Source: Candidatus Dojkabacteria bacterium (GTDB lineage Bacteria > Patescibacteriota > Dojkabacteria > B142 > OLB20). From it: DNA of 40,609 nucleotides. The translations under genes and the position numbers were made by a program. The stretch is from assembly GCA_020429395.1 (NCBI GenBank), contig JAGQLL010000016.1, positions 1 through 40,609 on the forward strand. The letters are read 5' to 3'. The notes below the pieces were generated by a model. That model had not been told where the DNA came from and made no database searches. It was given only the letters and a program-made list of their open reading frames with translations. Of the stretch, positions 8,622 through 29,159 are shown piece by piece; position 1 is the first letter of the stretch; each line of letters opens with the position of its first letter.

Positions 8622-8836
8622 TGGAAACAATAGGAGATAAAATTAGGAAATTAATCAAAGATAAGGAAATGACTCAGGAGGAGTTGGCTAGAAAGGCTGA
8701 TATACCCTACTCAACATTGATAAAAATTATTAGTGGCAATGTAGATAATCCTACAATAAGGACAATTCAGAAACTTGCAGTTGCCCTAGATGTATCCGTA
8801 GATGAATTATTAACGACAATTAGAACAAAAACATGA
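8618..8836 (+). CDS. Small XRE/Cro-type regulator, possible controller protein
   Basis: 72 residues, almost entirely one helix-turn-helix domain of the Cro/C1 type: IGDKIRKLIKDKEMTQEELARKADIPYSTLIKIISGNVDNPTIRTIQKLA spans it, with the Q-EELA turn and the N-P-T loop before the last helix. Its start overlaps the HNH stop (ATGA) and its stop overlaps the hsdR start (ATGA). Small XRE proteins embedded in restriction operons often act as controller (C) proteins that time nuclease expression; that role is inference. The palindrome at 7478-7491 is a candidate operator. Confidence 0.88.
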   Translation: MMETIGDKIRKLIKDKEMTQEELARKADIPYSTLIKIISGNVDNPTIRTIQKLAVALDVSVDELLTTIRTKT

Positions 8837-11646: not shown

Positions 11647-13156
11647 TACAACAATAAAATCACAAGTAGGGAGATTATGGGATAAGTTTTGGTCAGGAGG
11701 TATTAGTAATCCCCTTTCTGCAATTGAACAGATTTCCTACCTATTATTTATGAAACGCCTTGACGAATTAGATAAAAAGAAACAGCTTGATTCTGAATTT
11801 ACAGGAGAAGGCTACATGTCAATATTTGCTGGTGAAAACGAACAAATGAAATGGAGTTTTTTCAAACAGAGGGAAGGTGGAGAAATGCTCACCCATGTTC
11901 AGACTAAAGTTTTCCCATTTTTAAAGACTCTGGGTGCAGAAGGAAGTTCTTTCGCAAAACACATGAGTAATGCTGTCTTTATTATTTCTAAACCTTCCCT
12001 ACTTGTTGAAGCAGTAGGAATTATTGATGAAATATTTAATGAAATTTCAAAGCAAGAATCAGAGGGCCAAGGTTTTCAAGATACTCAGGGTGATTTGTAT
12101 GAATATTTGTTATCTGAAATAACAAGTGCTGGTAAACTCGGTCAATTCAGGACTCCAAGACACATTATTCAACTTATTTGCGAACTTGTAGATCCTAAAC
12201 TAGGTGACACAATCTGTGATCCTGCATGTGGTACAGGAGGTTTTTTGCTTGGTGCTTATCAACACATACTAACCGCTTTCACAAGCAAAGAACATCTTCA
12301 AATGGATGAAAATGGTTTAACAAGAGGTACACTTGGAGATAAGTTAACAGATGATAGGCAATGGACACTACTAAAAGAGAAGACTTTCTACGGATACGAT
12401 ATGGATGAAACCATGGTAAGAATTGGCTTAATGAATCTAATGATGCATGGATTAACCAATCCTAATATCTCCCAGAAAGATACACTCTCGAAAAAATATG
12501 ATGAGGACAATACTTTCGATGTCGTAATGGCGAACCCTCCCTTCAAAGGTAGTATTGATAAGGGGGATATTAATGAATCACTGTCTTTACCTACAACTAA
12601 AACTGAACTATTATTCATAAACAGAATTATCAAATCATTAAAGGTAGGAGGTAGAGCTGGGGTAATTGTTCCTGATGGTGTCTTGTTTGGTTCAAGTAAT
12701 GCTCACAAAATGGCTCGTAAAATGCTACTTAATGATTGCGAACTACAAGGAGTCATCTCAATGCCAAGTGGTGTCTTTAAGCCTTATGCAGGTGTTAGTA
12801 CGGCGATATTGGTGTTTGTTAAAGGTGGGGAAACCGAAAAAGTTTGGTTTTACGATATGAAATCTGATGGTTATAGCTTGGACGATAAAAGGACAAAATT
12901 AAAAGATAGTGATTTACCCGATATCGTTACGAGATGGCAAACAAGAAAAGATCAAACAGAAAATAATCGTAAAAGCCAATTCTTCTATGTAGAGAAGCAA
13001 TTGATTGAAGATAATAATTTTGACTTGAGTATCAATCGCTATAAAGAAATGGAATATGAAGAGGTGAAATACGAGGATCCCAAGGTAATTATAGAAAAAA
13101 TTGAAACTTTGGAACAAGAAATAGTTGCTGGACTTAGTGATTTAAAGAATTTGTAG
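11639..13156 (+). CDS. hsdM: Type I restriction-modification methyltransferase subunit
   Basis: 505 residues. An HsdM N-terminal helical domain (to about residue 135) is followed by an N6-adenine methyltransferase. SAM-binding motif I is DPACGTGG (194-201) and catalytic motif IV is NPPF (299-302). GQFRTPRHI just before motif I is the typical HsdM lead-in. It methylates adenine at the site read by HsdS, and in the R2M2S complex it also licenses restriction. It overlaps hsdR by 8 bp and ends 2 bp before hsdS. All key residues are present, so the modification arm looks active. Confidence 0.96.
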   Translation: MLNTTIKSQVGRLWDKFWSGGISNPLSAIEQISYLLFMKRLDELDKKKQLDSEFTGEGYMSIFAGENEQMKWSFFKQREGGEMLTHVQTKVFPFLKTLGAEGSSFAKHMSNAVFIISKPSLLVEAVGIIDEIFNEISKQESEGQGFQDTQGDLYEYLLSEITSAGKLGQFRTPRHIIQLICELVDPKLGDTICDPACGTGGFLLGAYQHILTAFTSKEHLQMDENGLTRGTLGDKLTDDRQWTLLKEKTFYGYDMDETMVRIGLMNLMMHGLTNPNISQKDTLSKKYDEDNTFDVVMANPPFKGSIDKGDINESLSLPTTKTELLFINRIIKSLKVGGRAGVIVPDGVLFGSSNAHKMARKMLLNDCELQGVISMPSGVFKPYAGVSTAILVFVKGGETEKVWFYDMKSDGYSLDDKRTKLKDSDLPDIVTRWQTRKDQTENNRKSQFFYVEKQLIEDNNFDLSINRYKEMEYEEVKYEDPKVIIEKIETLEQEIVAGLSDLKNL

Positions 13157-13158
13157 TT

Positions 13159-14298
13159 ATGAAATCAGTATCAATAACGGAAGCGGTCAAAATAAACAAC
13201 CAACATGTTAAACCTTTTGACGGAGAAAAGGATTATATGGCAACTGGAGGACTTATAGGGACGGAAATAAATACTGAAAAAGTAACATATAAAACAAAGC
13301 CGAGCCGAGCTGACCTCTTGGTTTGCAAAAATCAGTTAATAGTTGCACGAATGAAGGGAACAGTTAAGGTTCTGTTAATTGATGAAAGTAATTGTAATTT
13401 GATCGTCTCCACAGGATTTCTGGTTTTAGATGTCCAAGATGGCTGGCATCCAGGTTTTTTATATCATTTTTTCGTGTCAAAATATTTTCAAGATCAAAAA
13501 GATAAGCTTTCTATTGGAGCTACACAAAAAGCTATTAATAATGAGAAGTTTAAAGAAATTCTTATTCCAGAATTATCATACGAAGAACAAAAACGTATTG
13601 TTTCAATCTTGGATAAAGCAAATAAATTAATTGAGAAAAGAAAGGAAGCAATTGAATTACTTGATGAATATTTAAAATCGGTGTTTTTAGATATGTTTGG
13701 TGATCCTGTAACAAATCCAAGAAAATTTAAAATTGAGAAATTAGAGAATATGATTAATTTTATGACAAGCGGATCGAGGGGCTGGGCTAAATATTATTCT
13801 GAAAAGGGTGACATTTTTTTACGAATTCAAAATGTGGGTAAAAACTTGTTAATTAGCAGTGAATTAAACTACGTAAATCCTCCAGAGAATTCTGAAAGCA
13901 AAAGAACCAGAGTTATGAAAGGTGACGTTCTAATTAGCATTACTGCAGATCTAGGAAGAACTGCCGTTATAAATGATAAATTCGTTGGTTCGTTTATTAG
14001 TCAACATTTGGCACTTTTGAGATTAAAGAAAGATTACTTACCTGAATATGTATCCGAATTCTTAGCTTCAACGGGAGGTAAAAAGCAGATTGAAAAACTT
14101 AATAAAGGTGGCACAAAGGCTGGACTGAATTTTAATGACATTCGATCACTACAAGTTCCGGTTCCACCAATAGAATATCAAAACAAGTATCTTCATCTAA
14201 GAGAAAAAGTAATGTTATTAAAGGATTCGATGTATGCTCAAGAAAGAAAACTCGAATTACAATACTTTTCGATAATGAATAAAGAATTTAATAGATAA
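13159..14298 (+). CDS. hsdS: Type I restriction specificity subunit
   Basis: 379 residues with two target-recognition domains (about 1-138 and 178-330), each followed by a helical spacer. The central conserved helix runs from EEQKRIVSILDKANKLIEK to LLDEYLKSVFLDMFGDP and the distal one closes the protein. The SIGATQKAINNEKFKEILIP segment in TRD1 and GGTKAGLNFNDIRSLQVPVPP in TRD2 are the matching domain ends. The two domains define a bipartite target, which cannot be predicted. No frameshift or inverted second hsdS was seen nearby, so phase variation is not indicated here. Confidence 0.94.
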   Translation: MKSVSITEAVKINNQHVKPFDGEKDYMATGGLIGTEINTEKVTYKTKPSRADLLVCKNQLIVARMKGTVKVLLIDESNCNLIVSTGFLVLDVQDGWHPGFLYHFFVSKYFQDQKDKLSIGATQKAINNEKFKEILIPELSYEEQKRIVSILDKANKLIEKRKEAIELLDEYLKSVFLDMFGDPVTNPRKFKIEKLENMINFMTSGSRGWAKYYSEKGDIFLRIQNVGKNLLISSELNYVNPPENSESKRTRVMKGDVLISITADLGRTAVINDKFVGSFISQHLALLRLKKDYLPEYVSEFLASTGGKKQIEKLNKGGTKAGLNFNDIRSLQVPVPPIEYQNKYLHLREKVMLLKDSMYAQERKLELQYFSIMNKEFNR

Positions 14299-14408
14299 GT
14301 CAAAAAGTAAAACCTTATAAAGATACAAAAAGGATAAACAGAGTTATGTATTTCAACAATAAATGAATAAGTGCTTTAATAATTAGTTTGGATTTATAAT
14401 TTTAATAA

Positions 14409-15032
14409 ATGAAATACGAAAGAAATAAAGCTTTAATTATTGAACAAGTTATAAATATTGCCAGAATTGATAGTAGTAAATCTTTTTTGAAGATATTTAT
14501 TGACTCAAGCAGTCTTAAAGACATAGATCCGGACGATATACTTGGGATTCTCAATCAATTCCAGAATGATGGAAAACTGAAAATTGGTAAAACTTTCTTT
14601 GGTAATCAACTCAATATCAAAGGACCTTGGGATTTAATTAAGGAGCAAAGGCATTACATTGAGGTAGGAAGAATCGAAATCGAATACTTTGAAGAAGAAT
14701 TTCTAAAGCTTAGTCACTTAATTGGAGATGCATCACAAAGTACTGGTGATAAAGAGTTTTTTATCCTTTATACAAGTGATAGAAGAATTCTACTGAATGG
14801 GAAAATTGAAATAGCTCAACCAGACTTCAATAGTGAAAATGATTTAGTATTTAAATATCTATATGAAAGATCCGGTAGAGAAATTCCCCTCTCTGAGCTT
14901 AAAAGCAAAATACATATGAGAAAGCCTATCGACAAAGTCCTAACTAATCTAGGCTTTGTTAAAGGTTTACGAAGTGCTTTCTTTGATGTCAATAAAACCA
15001 CTATAAAATTTAAAAAGAAGGTTGTTTTATAA
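14409..15032 (+). CDS. Unknown protein with probable C-terminal winged helix
   Basis: 207 residues, no membrane segment. I do not recognise the family. The C-terminal part (about 140-207) has FILYTSDRRILLNGKIEIAQ followed by a helix-rich stretch and a strand-pair end (SAFFDVNKTTIKFKK), a pattern like the winged-helix-type small proteins common in Patescibacteria genomes; this is a weak resemblance. The N-terminal half is helical and charged. It lies 110 bp after hsdS and 88 bp before the ParB-methyltransferase gene, at the join between the restriction and the phage-like modules, with no overlaps to either. Confidence 0.6.
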   Translation: MKYERNKALIIEQVINIARIDSSKSFLKIFIDSSSLKDIDPDDILGILNQFQNDGKLKIGKTFFGNQLNIKGPWDLIKEQRHYIEVGRIEIEYFEEEFLKLSHLIGDASQSTGDKEFFILYTSDRRILLNGKIEIAQPDFNSENDLVFKYLYERSGREIPLSELKSKIHMRKPIDKVLTNLGFVKGLRSAFFDVNKTTIKFKKKVVL

Positions 15033-15120
15033 CACCTTTCATCTCCTTTCACATCCTTTACAACGACTATAAATACGTAGACATATATTCTGTATGTATA
15101 TATTTATTAATTTATAGAAA

Positions 15121-16449
15121 ATGAAGGATAAACTCCAAACAGTCTATGTCAAAATATCAGACCTTAAATCAGCCGACTATAACCCACGCAAATGGGACGA
15201 GAAACAATTAAAGGACCTCAAAACTAGTATAAAAAAGTTCGGAATTGTTGATCCTGCAATTGTTAACTCCGCAGAAAATCGCAAGAACATAGTAATTGGA
15301 GGCCATATGCGCATCGAAGCAGCTAAAGCTTTGGGTATTAAAGAAATGCCTATTGTGTATCTTGATATTCCTGAGTTGGAGAAAGAAAAAGAGTTAAACC
15401 TTAGGTTAAACAAAAATCAAGGCGAATTTGACTTCACCCTTCTTACTAATTTTGCCGAAGAGTTCCTCTCTGATATTGGTTTCAATTCAGAGGAATTAGA
15501 TCTTATCTTTGATATGGAAATTGATAATCCCGAAATATTTGATCTTAAAAAAGAGCTTGATAAGCTAGATATCAAGAAAGTAGAGATTCAAAAAGGAGAT
15601 ATCTGGAGGTTAGGAAATAATAGATTAATGTGTGGTGATTCTACAATTAATAGAGATGTTATGAAGTTGATGGATGGAGAAAAAGCAGATATGTGCTTTA
15701 CAGACCCACCCTACCTTTTAGACTATCTCAAAGGGAAAAAGAAACATGGCAAACCTGTTGAAGGTTTTGGTGCCAAACGTAATAGGAAGTATTTAGAAAC
15801 AGATGTTTTACCAGATAACTTTACAGAAGAGTGGATGGGTAATATTGCCAAGATAGCTAAGGATAACTTTCATATCATCGTTTACGAAAACTGGAAGAAT
15901 ATTAGAACAATTTGGGGAGAAATGGAAAAGTATTGGAAAGTAAAAAATATGATAGTCTGGCATTTACCAAATCGTAATCAAGGATTCGCAGCGAAGTATA
16001 AATTTTTCTCTAAGCATGATATTGCAATGGTGGGTTCAAGTGAAGCAATTGAACAGCTGAATATAAAGAAGGAGGAAGATTTACTACAGAACGAATACGA
16101 GACAGCGATATTTGCTACTGCTGGTAAACCACATTGGGAAAGTTATAAAAAAGGCAAAAAGATACAGCCTACTGATTTTATTGAATATAAAGCATCCGAT
16201 GAAAAGAGTTCTGGGCAAGGGATAATTTTTGGCACTAAACCTACAGAGATCCTAATCCCCTACATCAAAGTTTTGACCAAACGTGATGATCTAATCATAG
16301 AACCTTTTGGAGGAAGTGGTTCGACATTAATCGCTGCAACTAAGATGAAAAGACGTTGTAACATAATGGAGAAATCTCCTGTTTATTCCGAAGTTATCAA
16401 GAAACGATGGGAAAAATATACTGGTGAGAAAGGAGTAAGAATATCATGA
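15121..16449 (+). CDS. ParB-domain DNA methyltransferase (phage-type)
   Basis: 442 residues. The N-terminal ParB/Srx-like domain (about 8-100) contains NPRKW, the VIGGHMRIEAAKALG box and LNLRLNKN. A class beta-type DNA methyltransferase follows, with catalytic motif IV DPPY (195-198) ahead of the SAM-binding motif EPFGGSGST near residue 395. This order marks the N4-cytosine/N6-adenine group. Such ParB-MTase fusions are usual in phages and mobile elements next to terminase genes, as here, where it overlaps the small terminase by 4 bp. It may protect the element's DNA from restriction or mark it for packaging; the target site is unknown. Confidence 0.9.
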   Translation: MKDKLQTVYVKISDLKSADYNPRKWDEKQLKDLKTSIKKFGIVDPAIVNSAENRKNIVIGGHMRIEAAKALGIKEMPIVYLDIPELEKEKELNLRLNKNQGEFDFTLLTNFAEEFLSDIGFNSEELDLIFDMEIDNPEIFDLKKELDKLDIKKVEIQKGDIWRLGNNRLMCGDSTINRDVMKLMDGEKADMCFTDPPYLLDYLKGKKKHGKPVEGFGAKRNRKYLETDVLPDNFTEEWMGNIAKIAKDNFHIIVYENWKNIRTIWGEMEKYWKVKNMIVWHLPNRNQGFAAKYKFFSKHDIAMVGSSEAIEQLNIKKEEDLLQNEYETAIFATAGKPHWESYKKGKKIQPTDFIEYKASDEKSSGQGIIFGTKPTEILIPYIKVLTKRDDLIIEPFGGSGSTLIAATKMKRRCNIMEKSPVYSEVIKKRWEKYTGEKGVRIS

Positions 16450-16853
16450 AAACAAATTATAAAAACGAACTAATTGAACAATTAAGAAAAACACCGATAA
16501 TAGAAGTCGCTTGTAAGAAAACTGGAATTGGTAGGGCTACATTCTATCGTTGGCGAAATAAGGATCCGAAATTTGCCGAAGAAACTGATTTGGCAATTCA
16601 AGAAGGCTCACAATTAGTTAATGATATGGCAGAAAGTCAATTGATCAATGCGATCAAAGATGGGAATTTAACGGGCATTATCTTTTGGCTAAAGAATCAC
16701 CATAGACAATATTCGCCTAAACTAGAGGTTACAACAAAAAATGTGGATTTACCTTTAACAGAAGATCAAAAAGAATTAATACGGAAGTCTTTATCCATGG
16801 CTTTTGCTAATGATTCGAGTATGCGTGAGGAGGTTCGAGATGACAGGAAATGA
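16446..16853 (+). CDS. Helix-turn-helix protein, probable small terminase subunit
   Basis: 135 residues. The N-terminal 45 residues form a helix-turn-helix (PIIEVACKKTGIGRATFYRW), followed by a helical oligomerisation-like part with EGSQLVNDMAESQLINAIKDGN and the IFWLKNHHR end. This arrangement is typical of small terminase-like proteins such as the phBC6A51 group. Small terminases recognise the DNA end to be packaged and hand it to the large subunit. It overlaps the methyltransferase by 4 bp and the large terminase start lies within its end, as in phage packaging operons. Confidence 0.8.
   Translation: MKTNYKNELIEQLRKTPIIEVACKKTGIGRATFYRWRNKDPKFAEETDLAIQEGSQLVNDMAESQLINAIKDGNLTGIIFWLKNHHRQYSPKLEVTTKNVDLPLTEDQKELIRKSLSMAFANDSSMREEVRDDRK
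16829..16842 (+). promoter_or_regulatory. Strong Shine-Dalgarno site fixing the large terminase start
   Basis: AGGAGG at 16829-16834 lies five bases before the ATG at 16840. The frame is open from 16804, but no ribosome site precedes that position, so 16840 is the start. A full AGGAGG is unusual in this window, where most genes lack a clear site; this could reflect the foreign origin of the terminase module. Confidence 0.75.
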
Positions 16854-18300
16854 AATCGAAGGTCTGATAACGCCTGATGTGATACTTAAAATTTTGTCAG
16901 ACCGTGTTGCTCGGATAGCTATCACAAGTCAAAGTCATTACTGGTTCTTTCACTTGTATTTCCATGAGCATGTAAAGTACCCCACAGCCCAATTTCAAAA
17001 GGAAATGTTTGTAATTACTGAAGATGACGATGTCAAAATGGCAATTATTGTGGCATTTCGTGGATCAGCAAAGTCAACAATTATGACTATGTCATTTCCA
17101 TTATGGGCTGTGTTAGGTAGACTTCAAAAGAAATGTGTTGTAATAATTTCGCAAACTCAGCAACAAGCAAGAACGCACTTTGCTAATCTTAAACGGGAAC
17201 TTGAGGCAAATGATCTACTGAGGGGTGATTTAGGTCCTTTCGAAGAAGCTTCAGATGAATGGGGATCGTATTCAATTGTGATCCCTAAGTTCAACGCACG
17301 ATTAGTAGCTGCTTCAAGCGAACAAAGCATAAGAGGTATTAGACATGGGTCACATCGCCCAGACCTAATTATTTGCGATGATGTGGAGGATATTACTTCG
17401 GTAAAAACTAAAGAAGCACGGGATCGAGCTTACACATGGCTCACAGGTGATATCTTCCCGCTTGGAGATAAGAATACTAAAACAATAATAATCGGGAACC
17501 TATTACATGAGGATTCATTATTAATGCGATTGCGAAAAAATATTGAATTGAGGAATATAGATGCGATTTATAAACAATATCCTCTCGTCTGTGAGGATAA
17601 TCGCATAATGTGGCCAGGTAAATTCACAAGCTTGGAAGAAATATTAACATTAGAAAAATCTATTGGAAATGATAAAGCATGGCAGAGAGAGTTTATGCTA
17701 AGAATTGTTCCAGAAGATGATCAATTAGTACTTCCAGAATGGATCACTTATTACGACGAACTTCCTAAAAGTACGAAAGATTACAGATACACAATAATGG
17801 CTATTGATTTAGCAATATCTACAAGTGCATCAGCCGATTTTACAGCTATCGTTACTGCTCATGTGTATGGGAATCTAGATACACTGAAGGTATACATTCT
17901 ACCTAATCCAGTCAACCGAAAAATGGATTACCCGACTACCCTAGCTGAAATTAAAGAATTATCTCGAATTAAGTATTTCGGTTACCATTTGCCCAAAGTT
18001 TTAATTGAAGAAGTTGGTTATCAAGCATCAATAATTCAGCAATTACATAAAGAGAATTTCAATGTTAAGGGATTCAAAGTACATGGAAGTGATAAGCGTG
18101 CTAGGCTTAATTCAGTCACCCCAATGATTAGATTTGCTCAAGTACTTTTCCCAAGAGATACTTGTAAAGAATTGGTTCATCAATTAGTATACTTCGGCAC
18201 TGAGAATCATGACGATTTAGTTGATGCTTTCTCAATGCTTCTATTGGAGGTGATCGCAAAAGATCAACCCCCTATAGTCTTTTATAAGGACCTATACTAG
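16840..18300 (+). CDS. Large terminase-like ATPase/nuclease
   Basis: 486 residues from the ATG with the AGGAGG site. The N-terminal packaging ATPase shows FRGSAKST (Walker A, about 74-80) and LIICDDVED (Walker B, about 176-182). The C-terminal RNase H-like nuclease shows AIDLAIS (D323), LIEEVGY and NHDDLVDAFSM near the end, so all three acidic clusters are present. In phages this motor cuts concatemers and pumps DNA into the capsid. No portal, capsid or tail gene follows; the next gene is a recombinase 34 bp away. It may belong to a reduced prophage, a satellite, or an element that reuses the motor for another purpose. Confidence 0.9.
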   Translation: MTGNEIEGLITPDVILKILSDRVARIAITSQSHYWFFHLYFHEHVKYPTAQFQKEMFVITEDDDVKMAIIVAFRGSAKSTIMTMSFPLWAVLGRLQKKCVVIISQTQQQARTHFANLKRELEANDLLRGDLGPFEEASDEWGSYSIVIPKFNARLVAASSEQSIRGIRHGSHRPDLIICDDVEDITSVKTKEARDRAYTWLTGDIFPLGDKNTKTIIIGNLLHEDSLLMRLRKNIELRNIDAIYKQYPLVCEDNRIMWPGKFTSLEEILTLEKSIGNDKAWQREFMLRIVPEDDQLVLPEWITYYDELPKSTKDYRYTIMAIDLAISTSASADFTAIVTAHVYGNLDTLKVYILPNPVNRKMDYPTTLAEIKELSRIKYFGYHLPKVLIEEVGYQASIIQQLHKENFNVKGFKVHGSDKRARLNSVTPMIRFAQVLFPRDTCKELVHQLVYFGTENHDDLVDAFSMLLLEVIAKDQPPIVFYKDLY

Positions 18301-18334
18301 ACTTCTTGAGAAGGTCGCGGTATCGTCCTTGTAG

Positions 18335-19651
18335 ATGAAAACCAACGAAAATACAATACAATACTGTCTCTATGCTCGTAAGTCCTCAGAATCAGACGAA
18401 AAACAAGCAATGAGCATTGATGGTCAGCTTAGAGAAATGGAAGAGTTGGCAAAACGAGAAAGAATTGAGGTGGTAGAAGTAATTACCGAAAGCCATTCAG
18501 CTAAAGAAACTGGGCAAAGAGATAAATTTAACTATATGGTCGAGAACATTGCCCAAGGCAAATATAACGCAATAATTACATGGGCACCTGATAGAATCTC
18601 AAGAAATGCTGGTGATTTAGGACGAATTGTGGACTTAATGGATCAAGGCAAACTGCTTTGCATTAAAACTCATTCGCAAACATTCAGTAACAACCCGAAC
18701 GAAAAGTTTTTACTAATGATTCTATGCTCGCAGGCAAAGTTGGAAAATGATAATAGAGGTATCAATGTTAAGCGAGGTCTGAAGAATAAATGTAGCATCG
18801 GCATTAGACCTGGAGTTGCTCCGATTGGTTATATAAATACAATCAAGGCTAATCGAATTGCAACAGTAGATCTAGATCCTGAGCGCGCAGAAATTATAAG
18901 AGAAATGTTTTATAAAGTAGCGAATCAAGGCTTCTCTGGTAGGATGATTAAAAGATGGTTAGATAGCGAAGGATTCAAGACCAGAAATAACTGTGGACTC
19001 ACATTAGGTAGAATTTATGCCACACTTAACAATCCTTTCTATTACGGCGAATTCAAATATGGTACTAAATGGTACAAAGGTAGTCACAAACCACTAGTTA
19101 CAAAATATATTTACGATAAGGTACAAATTCAGCTTGAGGTAGTTCCGAGACAATGGAATAAACAAGTTTTCCCCTTTAAAAAGCTATGCAAGTGTGGAAG
19201 CTGTGGCGGAAGTGTAACTGCTGAAGTTAAATATCGTAGAACTAAGAAAGGGATGATCAACACGCACATATACTATCATTGTAATCGGATTCGGGATTAT
19301 AAATGTAAAGAGCCTTATATTACAGAAGAAGAGTTGATTAAACAGCTAATAATTCTCCTTCCAGAATTAAAATTAGATACGAAATATTTATGGCAAGAAT
19401 TCGATGAAGAGATTAGAAGATTAAATCACTTGAAAGGCATAATTTATAATCACCAAGAAGCAAATATCCAGCTTACTCCACATAATATTAATATGTTGAA
19501 ATCTGATGAATTAAGTCAGGAAGAATATTTAATGCTACAAGGTTATTTCCTTCATATTCTTCAGTTTGGAACTCCAGAGGAAAGATTAAAAATATTGGCA
19601 GGTATTAATTCTAAATTGGAGCTTAAGAATCGACAGTTACTTCTCATTTAA
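18335..19651 (+). CDS. Large serine recombinase
   Basis: 438 residues. The N-terminal resolvase-type domain has YARKS with the nucleophile Ser17, SIDGQ and WAPDRISRN with the catalytic arginines. The recombinase domain (about 165-260) includes GYI-NTIKAN and LNNPFYYGEF. A zinc ribbon then carries CGSCGG and a later C-x8-C pair (HCNRIRDYKC). A short charged C-terminal region follows. Large serine recombinases integrate and excise phages and elements at short att cores. It is 34 bp downstream of the large terminase gene, and the small gap contains an imperfect inverted repeat. Its own target need not be the tRNA-Ser gene. Confidence 0.95.
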   Translation: MKTNENTIQYCLYARKSSESDEKQAMSIDGQLREMEELAKRERIEVVEVITESHSAKETGQRDKFNYMVENIAQGKYNAIITWAPDRISRNAGDLGRIVDLMDQGKLLCIKTHSQTFSNNPNEKFLLMILCSQAKLENDNRGINVKRGLKNKCSIGIRPGVAPIGYINTIKANRIATVDLDPERAEIIREMFYKVANQGFSGRMIKRWLDSEGFKTRNNCGLTLGRIYATLNNPFYYGEFKYGTKWYKGSHKPLVTKYIYDKVQIQLEVVPRQWNKQVFPFKKLCKCGSCGGSVTAEVKYRRTKKGMINTHIYYHCNRIRDYKCKEPYITEEELIKQLIILLPELKLDTKYLWQEFDEEIRRLNHLKGIIYNHQEANIQLTPHNINMLKSDELSQEEYLMLQGYFLHILQFGTPEERLKILAGINSKLELKNRQLLLI

Positions 19652-21880: not shown

Positions 21881-22339
21881 ATGGCTGACAAATCAATTCG
21901 ACCAAGTGTTGTTATAGTTAAAGAAGGAAAAATCTTAGTTCTTAAGAGCAAGTATTCATCTGGAGAATTTTATCTTCTACCAGGTGGAAAGATTGAAAAT
22001 ATGGAAACTACTGTTGAAACTGCAATTCGTGAAGTAAAAGAAGAAACTAATTATGATATTTCAATAAAAAAACTACTATATTTACAAGAGTGGATTGATA
22101 AGATAAGAGCCAAGAATGTTATGTATATGGTATTTCTGGGTGAGATAAATAGCGGTAGCGAGACACATCTGAATGATCCATGGTTAAAGGAAGGAAAAAT
22201 TGAAGGAATTGAGTGGAAAAGTGTAGAAGAATTAAAAGACGAAGAATTTCATCCTAAGGCAATTTTACCTATGCTTGAGGAAGACATTAAGAATGAGTTT
22301 AAAAACGATGCTATCTATATTGATCCAGAAATTAGCTAG
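21881..22339 (+). CDS. Nudix hydrolase (plus-strand partner of the cluster)
   Basis: About 152 residues from the ATG at 21881 (MADKSIRPS). The frame is open to an ATG at 21782, but the extra 33 residues do not look like part of the Nudix fold and overlap promoter-like AT-rich sequence. The Nudix box is intact (GGKIENMETT-AIREVKEETNY) with the usual final Gly replaced by Asn, which is tolerated in the family. These enzymes hydrolyse nucleoside diphosphates linked to another group. Its stop codon overlaps the last codons of the convergent kinase-like gene by 4 bp, so the two ends are locked together. Confidence 0.88.
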   Translation: MADKSIRPSVVIVKEGKILVLKSKYSSGEFYLLPGGKIENMETTVETAIREVKEETNYDISIKKLLYLQEWIDKIRAKNVMYMVFLGEINSGSETHLNDPWLKEGKIEGIEWKSVEELKDEEFHPKAILPMLEEDIKNEFKNDAIYIDPEIS

Positions 22340-23091
22340 CTTATGAGAACTCGTTGTATTTCATCTGCAATAGTTTGAGGCATTGATTCACTATCCTTAT
22401 TCACATAATATGCCAAATTTATTGGTATTGTGCTGTTAGAAAATCCAATAGCATATTCACGGGCGTAATTCCTTGTCATTGTATATTCTTCTTCTACCAA
22501 TTCTCTTGGTTTTGATCTCTTTTTACTGCTATCCCCCTGTTTTCTTTCCATCAATTCATCTACAGTACCTGCCTCTATTAAGACTACAGATAGTCCGATT
22601 CCTCTCTGATCTAGTTCAAAAGCTAATCGTTGTCGCAAATCCATCCTCATACCAGGTATCCATGGCTCATTAATAGCTCTAAGGGTCTCAGAGGTGATAG
22701 TAAAGTGTGTGTCATAGATAAGTGGAGACCTAGTATGGTTTGATATTTAATCAATCAGAAGTTGAAAGGATTTATCTTCATATAATCGCATATCTCCTTT
22801 AAAGAACTCCTTTCGTTGATCGTCTGCTACTCCTGCAACTTGACAGAGTAAGTTTCCAGAATTAATTACCTTAGCACCATTAAGATTAACTAGTTCGTTA
22901 ACGATTGTGGTTTTCCCTGTACCTGAACATCCTCCTATAAGTATCATATGATTTGAATATTCTGATGAGTCAATCTCGGTCCTTTTGTAATATTGACCAA
23001 TTGAGGCATCTTGTGGAGCCCATAATGAAAACCGTTCGATATTTGAGAAGGGCGTATCGGGTTGTTCTACAATATCTTCTTTTATTGTCAT
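22336..23091 (-). pseudogene. Archaeal-type adenylate kinase-like gene broken by one in-frame TAA
   Basis: A single frame of 252 codons is interrupted only by TAA at 22749-22747 (codon 115). Before the stop is a P-loop (GGCSGTGKTT, 53-62), then VINSGN and an Asp/Arg-rich helix. After it, still in frame, comes SPLIYDTHFTITS (D127-T-H129), IEAGTVDELMERK and a C-terminal helix, as in the archaeal AdkA-type adenylate kinases. Homology on both sides shows one gene. Without readthrough the product is a fragment. TAA is one base from GAA, CAA, AAA or TTA. It is the last gene of the operon and overlaps the preceding gene by 4 bp. Confidence 0.82.
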
Positions 23092-23591
23092 TGCTCCTCT
23101 ACAATTGGGTTAACTAATTCAATAAACTCTTCACAATATTCAGCATGTGGTCTCACATGATCATAATTTCTATAGAATCTGAGATTAGGATGAACCATCT
23201 CTGCCATCGCCTGAAATGATGGTTCTCCAGTTTCTTTGCAAACAACCCTTGTGTCAAGTCCCATAATATTGCAACTCTCAAGATATGGACAAAAGTTGTG
23301 AGATTCAATTCTAATCTTAGTAGGAGAGATTCTTTCCATAACAATATCATTCGGATCCAGTTGCATATGATCAAAGTAGATTATATTAAATGCTACTTCC
23401 TCTGGTGATAATCCATTATATTTTTCAATCAAACTAGGACCATGCTCTAACATCCATTTTCTCTTCTTAGCTATTCGTTCCTGATTTACCCTCTCAATTT
23501 CCAAAGGATCATCATTCACACTACTAAGAGTCTGCATTTTCTTTTGAATTGCTGCCCATTCATCGTCTGAGTAAAGTCGTATCTCTTGCAT
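23088..23591 (-). CDS. Unknown four-cysteine protein of the nucleotide cluster
   Basis: 167 residues, no family I can name. Residues 1-60 are helical and basic/acidic. Residues 92-153 hold conserved-looking cysteines: C101 and C107 in FCPYLESCNIMG, C118 in VVCKETG, and C153 after H149 in HAEYC. Four cysteines plus a His could bind zinc or an iron-sulfur cluster. Some resemblance to the L-2-amino-thiazoline-4-carboxylate hydrolase-type proteins is possible but unsure. It sits between the kinase/ParB fusion (5 bp gap) and the broken kinase (4 bp overlap), in an operon that also encodes a radical SAM enzyme. Confidence 0.75.
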   Translation of the reverse strand: MQEIRLYSDDEWAAIQKKMQTLSSVNDDPLEIERVNQERIAKKRKWMLEHGPSLIEKYNGLSPEEVAFNIIYFDHMQLDPNDIVMERISPTKIRIESHNFCPYLESCNIMGLDTRVVCKETGEPSFQAMAEMVHPNLRFYRNYDHVRPHAEYCEEFIELVNPIVEEQ

Positions 23592-23596
23592 AGAAT

Positions 23597-24511
23597 TTAT
23601 TTAAAAGTAAAATCTGCTAACCTTGTTAAAGATAGTTGATTAAATTCATCAGCAGTCATAGGCACTCTTCTTATAAACGCCTTTGCACTTACCAGTTTAA
23701 TTAGATGATGTGCATAAGCCCTATGCCTTCCATCTTCAACCAAATCAACTGAAGAATCATCCTCTTGATTAATCATTCTATGAACAATTAATGGGCGAAC
23801 CTTTCGCTCTGCCTCAATATCTTGTACATATCTTTGTGCTGTTGATGGGTACACTTTAGCCTCCCAACTTACTTGTAGATCAGCAACCCTTACATCTTCT
23901 AATAGTAAGTCTGAGTCAAAAAGAGCCCCGTAACATTCTTCAAGAGTATCATCAATACTTTCATTTGTTGTGTCTACCACTACACATTCGCAACCTAAAC
24001 TAAACATTAATTCTCTATATCTTTGCTTCATTGTTTCATACTGATCTCTTGATTCTAAAGCGGCTTTTTCAAGACGAGATAGTTTTTTTCTAGACTGTGC
24101 TATTGTTAAAACTTCATCATACGATCTTTCAAATAACAAAATTCCTTTAGGCATTATAAAGTTCTCCTGCATTTCTTGCTGGGAAGGAAGTGGAGTACCA
24201 TTAATTATATTTCCATAATAGAGAATGCTTGGAAAATATCTATCTTGTATTACTAGATTCAGAGGAAGATTTTTACTTGTTTTATCTAAAGCATACAGAC
24301 CTTTAAAGTACATCTCTTTATAAGCTGGACTTAATTCACCAATAGAAACAGACTGTATTCCTGATTGTAATGTCGGATCCATGAACTCATGATTATACTG
24401 GCCTGGAATTGGACCATCATTAACGGATTTTTGAGAAAGTAATTTTGAGATTGTAGTTTTTCCAGTAAAATCTAACCCTTCTACTAGTGCATAAGGAACT
24501 TCATTACTCAT
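23597..24511 (-). CDS. Thymidylate kinase-like / ParB-like fusion protein
   Basis: 304 residues. Residues 1-200 resemble thymidylate kinase: VEGLDFTGKTT (P-loop, T16-T20) and QDRYFPS (D90-R91, the DR-Y motif of dTMP kinases), then a lid-like helical part. Residues about 215-285 form a ParB/sulfiredoxin-like domain with YPSTAQRYV, VRPLIVHRM and VEDGRHRAYA (D260-R264). The fusion of a nucleotide kinase to a ParB-like domain is unusual; ParB-fold domains bind CTP and some (SerK/Srx-like) act as kinases, so it could process or sense a nucleotide. It overlaps the Nudix gene by 1 bp and starts 5 bp upstream of the four-cysteine gene. Confidence 0.8.
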   Translation of the reverse strand: MSNEVPYALVEGLDFTGKTTISKLLSQKSVNDGPIPGQYNHEFMDPTLQSGIQSVSIGELSPAYKEMYFKGLYALDKTSKNLPLNLVIQDRYFPSILYYGNIINGTPLPSQQEMQENFIMPKGILLFERSYDEVLTIAQSRKKLSRLEKAALESRDQYETMKQRYRELMFSLGCECVVVDTTNESIDDTLEECYGALFDSDLLLEDVRVADLQVSWEAKVYPSTAQRYVQDIEAERKVRPLIVHRMINQEDDSSVDLVEDGRHRAYAHHLIKLVSAKAFIRRVPMTADEFNQLSLTRLADFTFK

Positions 24512-25029
24512 TATAGATTTCTTTTATAAGTTAAATTAATTTGGGACTGCGTATTATTTATTAAAAATTTTAGAATCTTATCATTTTCAAATTTCATTTT
24601 TGGCGGATTCTGTATATCACACCATTCCACATCATCTACTTCATCAGATTTAAGAACTATGTCACCCAAATAATTAATAACTTCGATAATATAGCCACTG
24701 CTTTCAAGTTTAACTATTCCCTCTACACAGTAAAGATTCTTTATCTTTGAAATTATTTTTGAATTAATAATTTGTATACCTAGCTCTTCCTTCATTTCTC
24801 GTTCCAAACCTTTCTTGTAAGATTCCTTTATTGAAATATCACCACCTGGTAAACAAAGGTTATTCTTCGACTTACTTTTCTTTCTTCTGATCAATAGTAC
24901 TTTTTCATTTTGTTTGATAATTGCTATCACATGACCTTTCAACTTTTCTCGGACGAATTTATGTCTATAATTCTCTATATCCTCCTTGTCCAGTTCAAGT
25001 GTTAATGTTATAGACTTATTTACAATCAT
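24511..25029 (-). CDS. Nudix hydrolase of the nucleotide operon
   Basis: 172 residues. The Nudix box is complete: GGDISIKESYKKGLEREMKEELGI (G-x5-E-x7-RE-x2-EE-x-G), after an IIKQNEKVLLIRRKKSK strand. The N-terminal 30 residues lie before the fold proper. The C-terminal VEWCDIQNPPK segment is a typical substrate-side strand. The enzyme would hydrolyse a nucleoside diphosphate derivative; the substrate is unknown. It overlaps radical SAM by 4 bp and the kinase/ParB fusion by 1 bp, so its level is tied to both. Confidence 0.9.
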   Translation of the reverse strand: MIVNKSITLTLELDKEDIENYRHKFVREKLKGHVIAIIKQNEKVLLIRRKKSKSKNNLCLPGGDISIKESYKKGLEREMKEELGIQIINSKIISKIKNLYCVEGIVKLESSGYIIEVINYLGDIVLKSDEVDDVEWCDIQNPPKMKFENDKILKFLINNTQSQINLTYKRNL

Positions 25030-26207
25030 TTAAAATATCCTTCCTTTGCTTCGTTATCTAATGCATTTCGATTACAACACTTGCAGAGTAACCCTTCAAA
25101 ATCATGACTTTGATATACATCTTGTAATTTACCAGCTGCTTCTATTAAATAGCCCACACCAGGAGCTTTTTTCCCTTGATAAATTGATCCAGGTGTTGGA
25201 TGAAATACGTTAAAAGCAGGAGCTACACCTCGGGCTGCTAGATAATCCCATCCTTCAAACATACTTTCAAGAGGTTCTAAGCCACCAACAAAAGTGGTAT
25301 ATGTACCATTTTTAAATACACCTGCTGCGTACTCTAAAGCGGCTATCATATTATCTCTTCCATAAGATTCATCCTTACCTGGACATACTTCCTTAAATAG
25401 TGCTGGATCCCAAACCTCAAGGTTAAATGAAATATGGTTCATTCCTGCTGCATATGCTTCATCAATTAAAGATAGATCTCTTGGAGGCATAGTTATTAAA
25501 TTTCCATCGATTCTTCTACCAAGTGTATCTGATGCTGCCTTAACAGCCTCGATATACTCTCTAAACTCATCATCATGATTCCATATACTTCCACCTGAAA
25601 ATTGAATGTGGTGAAGGTGATCACCTGTTTCTTGGATTGTTGATAATAGAGCCCTTACCATATCAGAGTTCTTATATTGCTCAGTCTCTCCGTATCGATT
25701 TTGAGTAGCCTTTAATGAACAGAATTTACAAGGTTGTGCACCTTCCCAATATGTACAAGTTTCTCGCATAAAAAACGAAACAGCTCCCATTCCGAGGGTA
25801 ACCCCTATTCTTTTTGCAGGGATTCCTTTAACTACCTCTCTATCATAATATTCAGGTCTGTCATGAAAACCAACACCTGTAATTCTTTTCCCATCGTAAT
25901 TTAGGGCAAACCCTTCATCCTCAGCAGCAATTTCCCATGGAGATTCATCTCTCCAATGTGTTCCTACTACAATATCATCTCCAAGTATTAATTCTTGAGG
26001 TACAGTTACTATTTTTGTGAAATCAGAACTATTATAGCTTCTAATTTTCTCTTTTACCTTTGACCCCACTGGTAATAAAGCACTTTCATGAAATCGCATG
26101 CCTTGCGAGAGAAGAGCAAGCTTAACATGAGCTGGATTAGAGAGATCGAGCTTTTCTACATCTGGGTCTTTTTCATACCCACCAGTTATCTCAATTAAAT
26201 CTACCAT
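25026..26207 (-). CDS. Radical SAM enzyme with CX8CX2C cluster motif
   Basis: 393 residues. After a 150-residue N-terminal extension comes the iron-sulfur motif CTYWEGAQPCKFC (C151, C160, C163), spaced CX8CX2C instead of the usual CX3CX2C. A GGSIW SAM-binding segment follows (FSGGS), then the barrel strands with ISFNLEVWD and GRDNMIAALEYA, and the C-terminal VFHPTPGS. The C-terminus adds a CKCC tetrad-like motif (GLLCKCCNRN). Radical SAM enzymes carry out methylation, thiolation, isomerisation or ring chemistry. It lies 2 bp from the HAD gene and overlaps the Nudix gene by 4 bp, placing it at the heart of the operon. Confidence 0.87.
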   Translation of the reverse strand: MVDLIEITGGYEKDPDVEKLDLSNPAHVKLALLSQGMRFHESALLPVGSKVKEKIRSYNSSDFTKIVTVPQELILGDDIVVGTHWRDESPWEIAAEDEGFALNYDGKRITGVGFHDRPEYYDREVVKGIPAKRIGVTLGMGAVSFFMRETCTYWEGAQPCKFCSLKATQNRYGETEQYKNSDMVRALLSTIQETGDHLHHIQFSGGSIWNHDDEFREYIEAVKAASDTLGRRIDGNLITMPPRDLSLIDEAYAAGMNHISFNLEVWDPALFKEVCPGKDESYGRDNMIAALEYAAGVFKNGTYTTFVGGLEPLESMFEGWDYLAARGVAPAFNVFHPTPGSIYQGKKAPGVGYLIEAAGKLQDVYQSHDFEGLLCKCCNRNALDNEAKEGYFK

Positions 26208-26209
26208 TG

Positions 26210-26923
26210 TTAAAAGTTAATAAAGTTATTTAAAATATATTCAGGAACTTCTGATAATACTGTTCCTGTAGAATCTTCCTCATCTAATTGTTTGATTTTG
26301 ATTACCTTGTCAATACCTGCCATCCTTGCTCCCTCAATGTCATTCTTTTCATCATTCCCAATAAATAGACATTCATTTTTTTTAATATGATATTTACTCA
26401 AAACAAGATCAAAAAATTTCGCATTTGGCTTTCTTACGCCAAAATCAACTGAAAAACCATAAAAATTGAAGTATTTTAAAATATCAAACTGAATCATGGC
26501 TGCGATTGAATACTGAGAATCTATTCCGAAAGGCGAGTTCGACAGTATTCCTAATTTATATGTTTTGCTTAGTTTTGATAGTACCTCATGTGTATTAGGG
26601 TCTAAATAAAGGGAATCAAAGTACTTTGAGGAAAAAATATGAATAATGTCTTTTGTGATTTTTTTATTTAAACCATAGATTTCAGAAAGACTAGAACCTA
26701 AATTATCTATATGAATCTCAATATCATTCTTATACTTTTTAATTCTGAGTTTATTAATTTCATTTTTAATATCTTTAAATTTAATTTGGCTCACACCTCT
26801 CTTATTCAGGTAGTCCAACACCTCATTAATACAATAATTAGATTCATTCTCTATATCTCCTGTAAGAGCTCTATCTCTAAAGTATAATAATGTCTCACCT
26901 AAATCAAAAATGATAGTTTTCAT
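26210..26923 (-). CDS. HAD-superfamily hydrolase
   Basis: 237 residues. Motif I is IIFDLGETLLY, where the second Asp of DxDxT is Gly, a variant common in uncharacterised HAD proteins. Motif II is the Ser in GILSNSP, motif III the Lys in GVRKPNAKFF, and motif IV FIGNDEKNDIEGARMAG. The helical cap between motifs I and II (about 20-100) marks a subfamily I protein. It would act on a phosphate ester, plausibly a nucleotide or sugar phosphate, but the loss of the acid/base Asp makes activity less certain. It overlaps the phosphoribosyltransferase-like gene by 4 bp. Confidence 0.88.
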   Translation of the reverse strand: MKTIIFDLGETLLYFRDRALTGDIENESNYCINEVLDYLNKRGVSQIKFKDIKNEINKLRIKKYKNDIEIHIDNLGSSLSEIYGLNKKITKDIIHIFSSKYFDSLYLDPNTHEVLSKLSKTYKLGILSNSPFGIDSQYSIAAMIQFDILKYFNFYGFSVDFGVRKPNAKFFDLVLSKYHIKKNECLFIGNDEKNDIEGARMAGIDKVIKIKQLDEEDSTGTVLSEVPEYILNNFINF

Positions 26924-27837
26924 AAATTTAGTGATTCTCTAATTAAATTAAAATACCAACCCTCTTTATTGAAATTTACATCCTTACTATTGAACAATTT
27001 ATTGTTAATTATGAAGTAGTCACTTAATCGAATACTAGACTCTGTCTTTGGAAAAAGAGCAACAGTCTTAGAGTCAGCAATGAAATCTTTTAGATATTTC
27101 AAAGTATTACCAGTATATGACCTGTCAATAATTATTGGCCTATCTATATCTTCCTTTGTTAGGTTTGAAATGAAATTTTTATCTAGTGGTGCTTTCCTGT
27201 ATTGTTCATATGGATCGTGTGAATGATGATATTCAGTTAAGCATAAATTTTTGTTTTTTGTGGTATTGTAAAAACCGCGGAGAAAAGGTATCCCTGAATG
27301 TGCGACAAAAATATAACTATTTCCAAGTTCAGCAACTTCGTTCCAGACAGATCCTTCACGTGCATAATTTCCTGAATAAAGTTTAAATTTATCTTCAAAA
27401 CCTTTTCTAGGTCCATACTTACTGTAATCTTTTTTAAATGTTTCGAGGATTGATGAATTTTTACATTCAACAACTTTCATTAGGTTAAGTTTTTGCTTTT
27501 GTTTCTTTATGCCTAATTCGCTTATTGCTTCGAATAGGATCTGATTTCTAATTGATCTAAGTATTGTTATATCATTTGAGACGAGGCGTATCTCAAATTC
27601 TGTGTGCTCAACTATTTCTACTGAAGCAAAATCAAATTCTTTTAGCAGTCGATTAATATTGGTTTGAATCCACACCCATATTTTAAAAATATCTTCTATA
27701 TCAACTCTGTCTAATTCTTGTGGTATGTCAGATATATCAATGATACTCAACTCTGGTAATCTATTCCCTTGAGAATCATAGAAACCAAATCTATTGTGTA
27801 CAGCACTCCATACTTTTTGAATCTGTTCTGACATCAT
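26920..27837 (-). CDS. Phosphoribosyltransferase-like protein
   Basis: 305 residues. The C-terminal half contains two loops of the PRTase fold: IFVAHSGIPFLRGFYN (177-191), like the pyrophosphate loop, and PIIIDRSYTGNTLKYLKDFI (234-253), like the PRPP-binding loop with the usual acidic pair reduced to D-R. The N-terminal 170 residues match nothing I know and may bind the base or a partner. If active, it would move a ribose-phosphate to or from a base. It overlaps the adenylate-kinase-like and HAD genes by 4 bp each, so the three are translated in strict order. Confidence 0.72.
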   Translation of the reverse strand: MMSEQIQKVWSAVHNRFGFYDSQGNRLPELSIIDISDIPQELDRVDIEDIFKIWVWIQTNINRLLKEFDFASVEIVEHTEFEIRLVSNDITILRSIRNQILFEAISELGIKKQKQKLNLMKVVECKNSSILETFKKDYSKYGPRKGFEDKFKLYSGNYAREGSVWNEVAELGNSYIFVAHSGIPFLRGFYNTTKNKNLCLTEYHHSHDPYEQYRKAPLDKNFISNLTKEDIDRPIIIDRSYTGNTLKYLKDFIADSKTVALFPKTESSIRLSDYFIINNKLFNSKDVNFNKEGWYFNLIRESLNL

Positions 27838-28481
27838 TTGTTATTAATAAAATCAACGGGTAGTTCTTCTCCAACTCGTTTTATTTCTATTATCCGACTT
27901 ACATCAACTGCTAACTCCATCGGTTCTCTTGACTCTGTATTTAAAGTAACCAGTCCTTCACCAGAATTATAATAATCCACTAATTCATTATTGGTGATTC
28001 TAAAACCATCAAGTAAATTCAGACCATTAAGTCCATCAGGTCTATTCTCAAGCTTATGCCTTTGTTCGATTCTTGTTACTAAAGTTTTATCGTCACAAAT
28101 TAAATGTATATTTAACATTCTGATATTTAAACCAAGCTCCCTAACCCTTGTGTCAAAATCTTTTGCTTGGCGAATTGTCTTTATCGATCCTGGAAGAATA
28201 AATGAACTAGATTTGTCTAAATTGAAGGTAAGTTCTCCAACAAGAATACTGGTCATTAAGTCATCTGGTAAATGTTCACCATTTCTATAATTGGTTTCGA
28301 AAGGTTTTAAGATTGAAGAGTAACGCTGAGAGTAAGGATTAGGAATATTTTCAGTAAAGCATGCTCTTAATATTTCGCCAGTTGAAATGACATGAAAATC
28401 AAACTCAGAAGCTAATTGATGGGCAAGTGTGGATTTTCCTACTCCAGGTAATCCAAATAAATTTATAATAATTGGTTGCAT
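27834..28481 (-). CDS. Adenylate kinase-like nucleotide kinase with altered substrate loop
   Basis: 215 residues, normal adenylate kinase length. The P-loop GLPGVGKST (10-18) and the ISTGEILR segment (33-39) match adenylate kinase. However, the NMP-binding FILDGFPRT is replaced by FILPGSIKT (94-102), which loses the Asp, Phe-Pro and Arg that contact the substrate phosphate. The R-x-DG end and the YYNSGEGL C-terminus are kept. It may therefore phosphorylate a different nucleotide or none. It is the first gene of the eight-gene operon, directly behind the palindromic promoter, and ends in a 4 bp overlap. Confidence 0.85.
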   Translation of the reverse strand: MQPIIINLFGLPGVGKSTLAHQLASEFDFHVISTGEILRACFTENIPNPYSQRYSSILKPFETNYRNGEHLPDDLMTSILVGELTFNLDKSSSFILPGSIKTIRQAKDFDTRVRELGLNIRMLNIHLICDDKTLVTRIEQRHKLENRPDGLNGLNLLDGFRITNNELVDYYNSGEGLVTLNTESREPMELAVDVSRIIEIKRVGEELPVDFINNK

Positions 28482-28493
28482 GGTTTATATTAA

Positions 28494-28517
28494 CTATGCA
28501 CACGTAAGTGTGCATAG
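28494..28517. promoter_or_regulatory. Perfect 10+10 bp palindrome, probable operator
   Basis: CTATGCACAC (28494-28503) and its exact reverse complement (28508-28517) are separated by 4 bases. The palindrome begins right after the -10 box of the minus-strand promoter and covers the expected transcription start, 13 bp before the first gene. A repressor bound here would block the operon. As RNA it would also make a 5' hairpin. The adjacent ribbon-helix-helix protein is the obvious candidate binder. Confidence 0.85.
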
Positions 28518-28546
28518 ATTATATTATACTGTCAGAATACAGTCAA
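28518..28546 (-). promoter_or_regulatory. Near-consensus promoter of the nucleotide operon
   Basis: On the minus strand, TTGACT (28546-28541) is followed by exactly 17 bases and TATAAT (28523-28518). A second overlapping TATAAT begins five bases earlier but would give a 12-base spacer, so the downstream one is preferred. This is the best sigma70-type promoter in the window. Such a strong promoter usually needs repression, which the adjoining palindrome would supply. Confidence 0.8.
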
Positions 28547-28566
28547 CACTAGGAGTATGCTATAAT
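28528..28566 (+). promoter_or_regulatory. Regulator promoter with a second inverted repeat
   Basis: TGCTATAAT (28558-28566) is a complete extended -10 box on the plus strand, 32 bp before the regulator ATG; no good -35 is seen. ACTGT-CAGAAT-ACAGT (28528-28543) is a 5+5 bp inverted repeat between the two divergent promoters and overlaps the other promoter's spacer. It could be a second site through which the regulator controls both directions. Confidence 0.5.
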
Positions 28567-28598: not shown

Positions 28599-29159
28599 AT
28601 GAAGGTATTTCTTTCAGCAATTATTGAAGATAAAAAAAGGGTGGGTATCTTTAACTCCTTAAAAGAAGAAATTAGCCAAAATCATAGCTTAGAAGCTAGA
28701 TCTAAAAAGCAATCTACCCAATCAGAATCAACAAAGTCAGGTATTACAAAGAAAGCAATAATCACCTCCGATTGTTGCATATTCGAAGTAACAACTCAGG
28801 ATATTGACTTAGGATATCAGATATACCTATCATTGCAAAAAAGTAAGCCAACTTTAGTCCTGATGGATAAAAAATTCGGAGATCCTTCAGATATATTCAT
28901 TGGATTTGACTCAAAATATCTTATCGCTAAAAATTATTCTAATAATCACGACTTGAGACTAATTGTCTCAAAATTTCTCAAAGAAAGTAATATAGAAAGT
29001 CGAGTTCGTTTTCACCTAGTGGTCGATAAGAGTCTAGATGATTATATTGAATGGGCAAGTACTGAATATAAGATAACTAAAACAGATGTTATAAAAAACT
29101 CACTACAAAATACCTTAGCAAACGACAGAAAGTATCGATTACTCAATGATAATAGCTAA
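28599..29159 (+). CDS. Deoxyribosyltransferase-like sensor fused to ribbon-helix-helix DNA-binding domain
   Basis: 186 residues from the ATG at 28599; an upstream TTG in frame is less likely. Residues 1-128 resemble nucleoside 2-deoxyribosyltransferase/DNPH1 proteins: MKVFLSAII start, CCIFEVTTQD (59-68), DLGYQIYLSLQKSKPTLVL (70-88). The catalytic Glu expected at the 'GxE' position is Gln (Q74), so it probably binds but does not cleave a nucleotide. Residues about 135-181 look like a ribbon-helix-helix domain (RVRFHLVVDKSL strand, then two helices). I infer a nucleotide-responsive repressor of the divergent operon through the palindrome at 28494-28517. Confidence 0.7.
   Translation: MKVFLSAIIEDKKRVGIFNSLKEEISQNHSLEARSKKQSTQSESTKSGITKKAIITSDCCIFEVTTQDIDLGYQIYLSLQKSKPTLVLMDKKFGDPSDIFIGFDSKYLIAKNYSNNHDLRLIVSKFLKESNIESRVRFHLVVDKSLDDYIEWASTEYKITKTDVIKNSLQNTLANDRKYRLLNDNS

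Follow-up and report, generated by a model that had tools for sequence, protein, structure and literature searches.

The closest described precedents for the locus reported here come from ribbon-helix-helix (RHH) repressors and from nucleotide-acting enzymes. NikR is an RHH one-component repressor with a ligand domain that senses nickel, whereas CopG is without a sensor and recognises TGCA boxes that are spaced by about 9 bp. In regulators of the NrtR type a NUDIX domain is joined to a winged helix. CopG of pMV158 acts by auto-repression (PMC5717011). MilB and DNPH1/Rcl are hydroxymethyl-nucleotide or 2'-deoxynucleoside N-hydrolases of the PF05014 superfamily; the nucleophile of DNPH1 is Glu104, and the E104Q variant binds the substrate intact with no cleavage (PMC10603095, PMC12751057).

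The locus lies in a window of 40,609 nucleotides, the whole stretch of DNA that was analysed, from a Candidatus Dojkabacteria bacterium. Here, a perfect palindrome follows the promoter of an operon, and a regulator gene encoding a DNPH1/Rcl-like domain and a predicted C-terminal RHH segment runs divergent to the operon, both sharing a gap of 117 bp. The promoter, the palindrome, the layout, the divergent regulator, the words upstream of its relatives, their co-variation with the regulator, the neighbours of the relatives and the loss of a catalytic Glu are all read from the sequence. Like NikR and CopG, the system would combine an RHH segment (C- or N-terminal), symmetric half-sites and an operator over a promoter, and in relatives of the window regulator the site takes an autoregulation-like position; unlike them, its sensor is DNPH1-like and N-terminal, and the cores of the palindrome are spaced by 14 bp. 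The likeness to DNPH1/Rcl and MilB shows in a profile match that spans the first 140 residues (E 2e-16), but unlike DNPH1/Rcl the window protein has Gln in place of Glu104, a putative RHH fusion and a link to regulatory DNA. The parallel to NrtR is that a one-component regulator of nucleotide genes would use a nucleotide-acting enzyme fold for sensing, whereas the enzyme fold, the DNA-binding fold and the targets all differ. We consider it probable that the palindrome serves the divergent DNPH1-RHH regulator as its operator; this regulator would be a local repressor responsive to a non-canonical nucleotide.

On the minus strand, consensus scan and sequence place a -35 hexamer TTGACT at 28541-28546, from which the -10 hexamer TATAAT (28518-28523) is separated by the 17-nt spacer GTATTCTGACAGTATAA. 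The palindrome CTATGCACAC-TTAC-GTGTGCATAG, the predicted operator (28494-28517, minus strand), starts directly after TATAAT as a perfect 10-4-10 inverted repeat, and its end is followed by 12 nt and then by the ATG at 28481-28479. The promoter fits the sigma-70 type, whose TTGACA/TATAAT-like hexamers stand 16-18 nt apart, with an 11/12 hexamer match, a spacer of 17 and 37 nt from the end of the -10 to the ATG. It is the top of 45 sites found by the consensus scan in 22-36 kb and the sole site of at least 11/12 across the whole window. The first-pass annotation had described these hexamers with a 10+10 bp repeat and a 4-base spacer, and had called the promoter the strongest of the window; the elements are present exactly so on the minus strand, and the ranking holds as a statement on consensus match only. 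With a start about 7 nt past the -10, +1 is predicted near 28511, within the palindrome. The half-site word TGCACA occurs in both arms, at 28497-28502 on the plus strand and at 28509-28514 on the minus strand (TGTGCA on the plus strand), and an imperfect extension of the repeat (17-nt arms, 88%) reaches the -10 box. Two perfect repeats with arms of at least 9 bp and a loop of at most 8 are found in the window, and of these the palindrome alone has a loop of at most 4. It is single-copy in the 1.07-Mb genome, even at 3 mismatches, and the exact palindrome is absent from the viral contigs searched. A second, weaker dyad, ACTGT-N6-ACAGT, lies at 28528-28543, between the hexamers of this promoter, and may be due to chance.

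This promoter heads an eight- to nine-gene nucleotide-metabolism operon on the minus strand, whose frames overlap or almost touch from 28481 to 22747. Gene 1 (27834-28481) is adenylate-kinase-like (PF00406, E 5e-16). Gene 2 (26920-27837, 305 aa) is called phosphoribosyltransferase (PRTase)-like from the motif IIIDRSYTGNTL, recognized by eye only, and its product has no Pfam match and nothing credible in the PDB. It is followed by a HAD phosphatase (gene 3, 26210-26923), a radical SAM protein (gene 4, 25026-26207; NF045502, E 3e-86), a NUDIX hydrolase (gene 5, 24511-25029), a thymidylate-kinase-like protein with a C-terminal extension (gene 6, 23597-24511) and a protein of 167 aa with no assigned function (gene 7, 23088-23591). 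The last, gene 8(-9) at 22336-23091, is a second adenylate-kinase-like frame that matches NF003122 in two halves, and its in-frame TAA at 22747-22749 may mean that the gene is a pseudogene, that the sequence is in error or that the frames are two separate ones. Taken together, the gene set looks like one for the handling of a modified nucleotide. The C-terminal stretch of gene 6 (VEDGRHRAYAHHLI) resembles the ParB type by eye, an unusual fusion. Most genes of the operon (22336-28481), the first included, are without a clear Shine-Dalgarno sequence before the start codon. Beside the operon, positions 8618-19651 carry an XRE regulator, type I restriction-modification genes (by eye), a ParB-methyltransferase, a terminase large subunit and a serine integrase, and would represent a mobile or prophage-like island.

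The operon is rare among the 379 genomes of the phylum: the PRTase-like gene occurs in only one other of them, Candidatus Dojkabacteria Bin_125, which belongs to the same taxonomic order as the genome of the window and has a shorter set (L031 858-4453), with radical SAM, PRTase-like, CYTH-like (by eye) and HAD genes. No match to the PRTase-like protein was found in the viral contigs or plasmids searched. The radical SAM protein has many distant plasmid matches; the gene set is a different one in the two plasmid regions that were inspected. A flanking gene tried for synteny has no relative in the sister genome.

The regulator gene (28599-29159, plus strand) encodes 186 aa. Its open reading frame as listed begins at TTG 28587; since the relatives begin with MK, ATG 28599 is taken as the start. 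A possible extended -10 of this gene (TGCTATAAT, 28558-28566, plus strand) is seen directly, with no matching -35, and as the two promoters stand back to back, some coupling of operon and regulator is likely. Alone, the window regulator has no Pfam match. PF05014 is matched by 15 of the 20 family members (best E 2e-6), and in a PDB search with the 20-member family profile, rat Rcl/DNPH1 and further DNPH1 chains score E values of 2e-16 to 8e-15; via the family profile, profile similarity assigns the domain to the DNPH1/Rcl-like fold (PF05014 superfamily). The C-terminal 50 residues have a pattern, conserved in 20 relatives, like the strand-helix-helix segment of about 45 residues that marks RHH (CopG/Arc/MetJ-like) proteins. 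RHH_1 and RHH_3 match weakly in some relatives (best E 9e-4) and not in the window protein, whose RHH assignment rests on the relatives, and the PDB profile search gave no credible RHH match. A single-sequence structure prediction of the regulator reached a pLDDT of 38, too low for use.

Relatives of the regulator are present in 63 of the 379 phylum genomes, and further ones came from the class. No DNPH1-RHH protein was detected in viral contigs with the family alignment as query, nor in plasmids and phages with the paralog of the window's own genome as query. That paralog, a second close copy on contig C6 (L015 9225-10414), is divergent to a NUDIX gene and has two TGCACA words; it might cross-talk with the predicted operator in the window. 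In the tree, the window regulator sits on a long branch and does not fall within the close clade that has TGCACA.

The DNA upstream of the relatives' own genes bears on the palindrome. In the close group TGCACA is found there in 12/12, the element being typically TATGCACATATTGCACAT. The 1.3 kb of upstream DNA hold 22 copies, the remaining 39 kb of these loci 14, an enrichment with P about 1e-17 if the genes were independent, which, being related, they are not. The intermediate group has TRCACA in 10/11, in a TGTGTAGTCATTACACA-like element, and the distant group has the word in 1/19, as TACACA in L083. Nine close members carry a -35 box (TTGCAC; TTGTGT in L077) inside the element, then 17 bp and then TANNNT, so that in close relatives the putative element lies over the regulator's own predicted promoter, in a repressor-like layout. 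The window palindrome is made of two inverted copies of this family half-site. With a matrix built without the window, its arms rank third and fourth of about 81,000 positions; the two ranks above them are isolated sites inside genes, and no other pair in the window falls within 20 bp. One relative, L077, has the identical arm CTATGCACAC. The word also co-varies with the predicted DNA-reading strand of the RHH segment: RFH goes with TGCACA in 10/10, and members with RYN have TACACA in 7/7 (one of the seven also has TGTGCA). The window combines RFH with TGCACA. Its palindrome cores are convergent and 14 bp apart, those of the relatives being mostly 9 bp apart, and the regulator's own promoter in the window has no TGCACA word close by.

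These comparisons lend weight to two suggestions of the first-pass annotation, that the start site carries an operator of the repressor type and that the adjacent RHH protein binds it: TGCACA recurs upstream of the regulator's relatives and co-varies with the predicted DNA-reading strand. Its expectation that the same palindrome would precede homologous operons failed at the sole, partial one found, as the DNA upstream of the Bin_125 operon has no such palindrome. The half-site beside the regulator gene is conserved; the palindrome itself is not.

A position equivalent to E104 of human DNPH1 can be followed through the family. The window protein has Gln there, as do 10/12 close and 11/11 intermediate members (21/23 together), and 12/18 distant members have Glu; the window protein thus lacks the catalytic Glu of an active DNPH1-type N-hydrolase. 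As the catalytic Glu is replaced by Gln, we infer that the domain senses a nucleotide rather than hydrolysing it. The Asp80 position of DNPH1 is kept in the window protein. The Tyr24 position is Phe, as in MilB, where Phe goes with ribose. The phosphate-binding Ser98 position is Asp, which makes ligand binding uncertain, and given both replacements the ligand may not be hmdUMP. A distant branch (L014, L016, L053, L007 and similar) stands beside a Lon-like AAA gene, has retained the catalytic Glu in most members and is without the TGCACA element; perhaps it has a different function.

The gene neighbourhood was compared at 22 relatives, and in 22/22 the regulator gene is divergent to its left neighbour (at least 80 aa). 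In 13 of these 22 the neighbour is NUDIX; others match MazG, HD/YfbR and Ppx/GppA, further ones match Ham1, dUTPase_2 and YfbR below curated cut-offs, and 5'-nucleotidase genes are also among the divergent neighbours. The divergent nucleotide hydrolases therefore link the family to nucleotide-pool hydrolases, in keeping with what a DNPH1-like domain would lead one to expect.

Based on these data we propose a switch that would entail DNA binding, repression rather than activation, a ligand and induction. RHH dimers would occupy the two inverted TGCACA arms of 28494-28517, and the bound regulator would extend from about -6, where the -10 ends, to about +18, blocking the start by RNA polymerase. 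A non-canonical nucleotide or nucleoside held in the DNPH1-like domain would alter the affinity for DNA and turn the operon on; the ligand-bound regulator would let go and the near-consensus promoter would fire, the direction of the ligand effect being a guess.

Another repressor encoded elsewhere, for example of the TetR, LacI or XRE type, could be the one that uses the palindrome, since such dimers, too, would be well served by a symmetric site of 24 bp whose arms measure 10 bp, and the convergent 14-bp spacing is unlike that of the relatives. We regard this as unlikely: the arms hold the half-site of the adjacent regulator's own family, the single genomic copy fits a local regulator, and the gene of the DNPH1-RHH regulator is divergent and shares the gap. 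It is less plausible still that binding of the regulator to the palindrome activates the operon, or that the regulator controls its own gene only. The regulator's own promoter does lie in the same gap and in relatives the element sits at the regulator's promoter, yet a site spanning about -6 to +18 is one where binding blocks rather than helps, and an almost consensus promoter would presumably need no activator.

The repeat could also act as RNA or arise by chance. It might form a hairpin at the 5' end of the mRNA and stabilise or gate the transcript, and folded whole it is stable (-15.0 kcal/mol, z -4.8); however, +1 is predicted in the first arm, and from there only short stems form (-7.6 kcal/mol, z -1.7), no Rfam family is found at threshold, and the TGCACA words at relatives are left unexplained, so that we give a hairpin little credence. 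Even less can be said for a terminator of plus-strand transcripts, flagged on the plus strand by a scan that finds 6 such sites where 5.9 are expected by chance; no plausible plus-strand gene runs into it and its tail, ATTATATTAT, does not form a T tract. Coincidence of an AT-rich promoter with a random palindrome deserves the same low standing. Either element alone is unremarkable, as 2.85 promoter matches of 11/12 and 0.38 repeats (arm of at least 10, loop of at most 4) are expected per 40.6 kb, the length of the window, in first-order Markov sequence of the same composition. Together in the 117-bp divergent gap they are not unremarkable, however: a repeat with an arm of at least 10 in that gap has P about 1e-3, ATGCACA within a random 10-bp arm has P 4e-4, and the two coincide at the gene of the matching regulator. 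An operator for the divergent DNPH1-RHH regulator is thus the reading that we prefer.

The wider regulator family, with its putative dead DNPH1-like sensor, is a more interesting result than the proposed switch in the window. Patescibacteria have tiny genomes and, to our knowledge, few described transcription factors, and the pairing of DNPH1-like and RHH domains has no description in the literature searched, outside which most subscription journals lie. We put at about even the chances that these proteins form an undescribed Patescibacteria family of one-component repressors, in which a dead, substrate-trapping DNPH1-like sensor would respond to non-canonical nucleotides and control NUDIX, MazG, Ham1-like and 5'-nucleotidase genes via TGCACA/TACACA and, in the window, would drive a whole modified-nucleotide operon. 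If so, a regulator-operator code is predicted, with RFH reading TGCACA and RYN reading TACACA. The Glu-to-Gln replacement with which biochemists capture the substrates of DNPH1 would here have made a sensor out of an enzyme, and the cleaning of the nucleotide pool would be tied to a dedicated signal.
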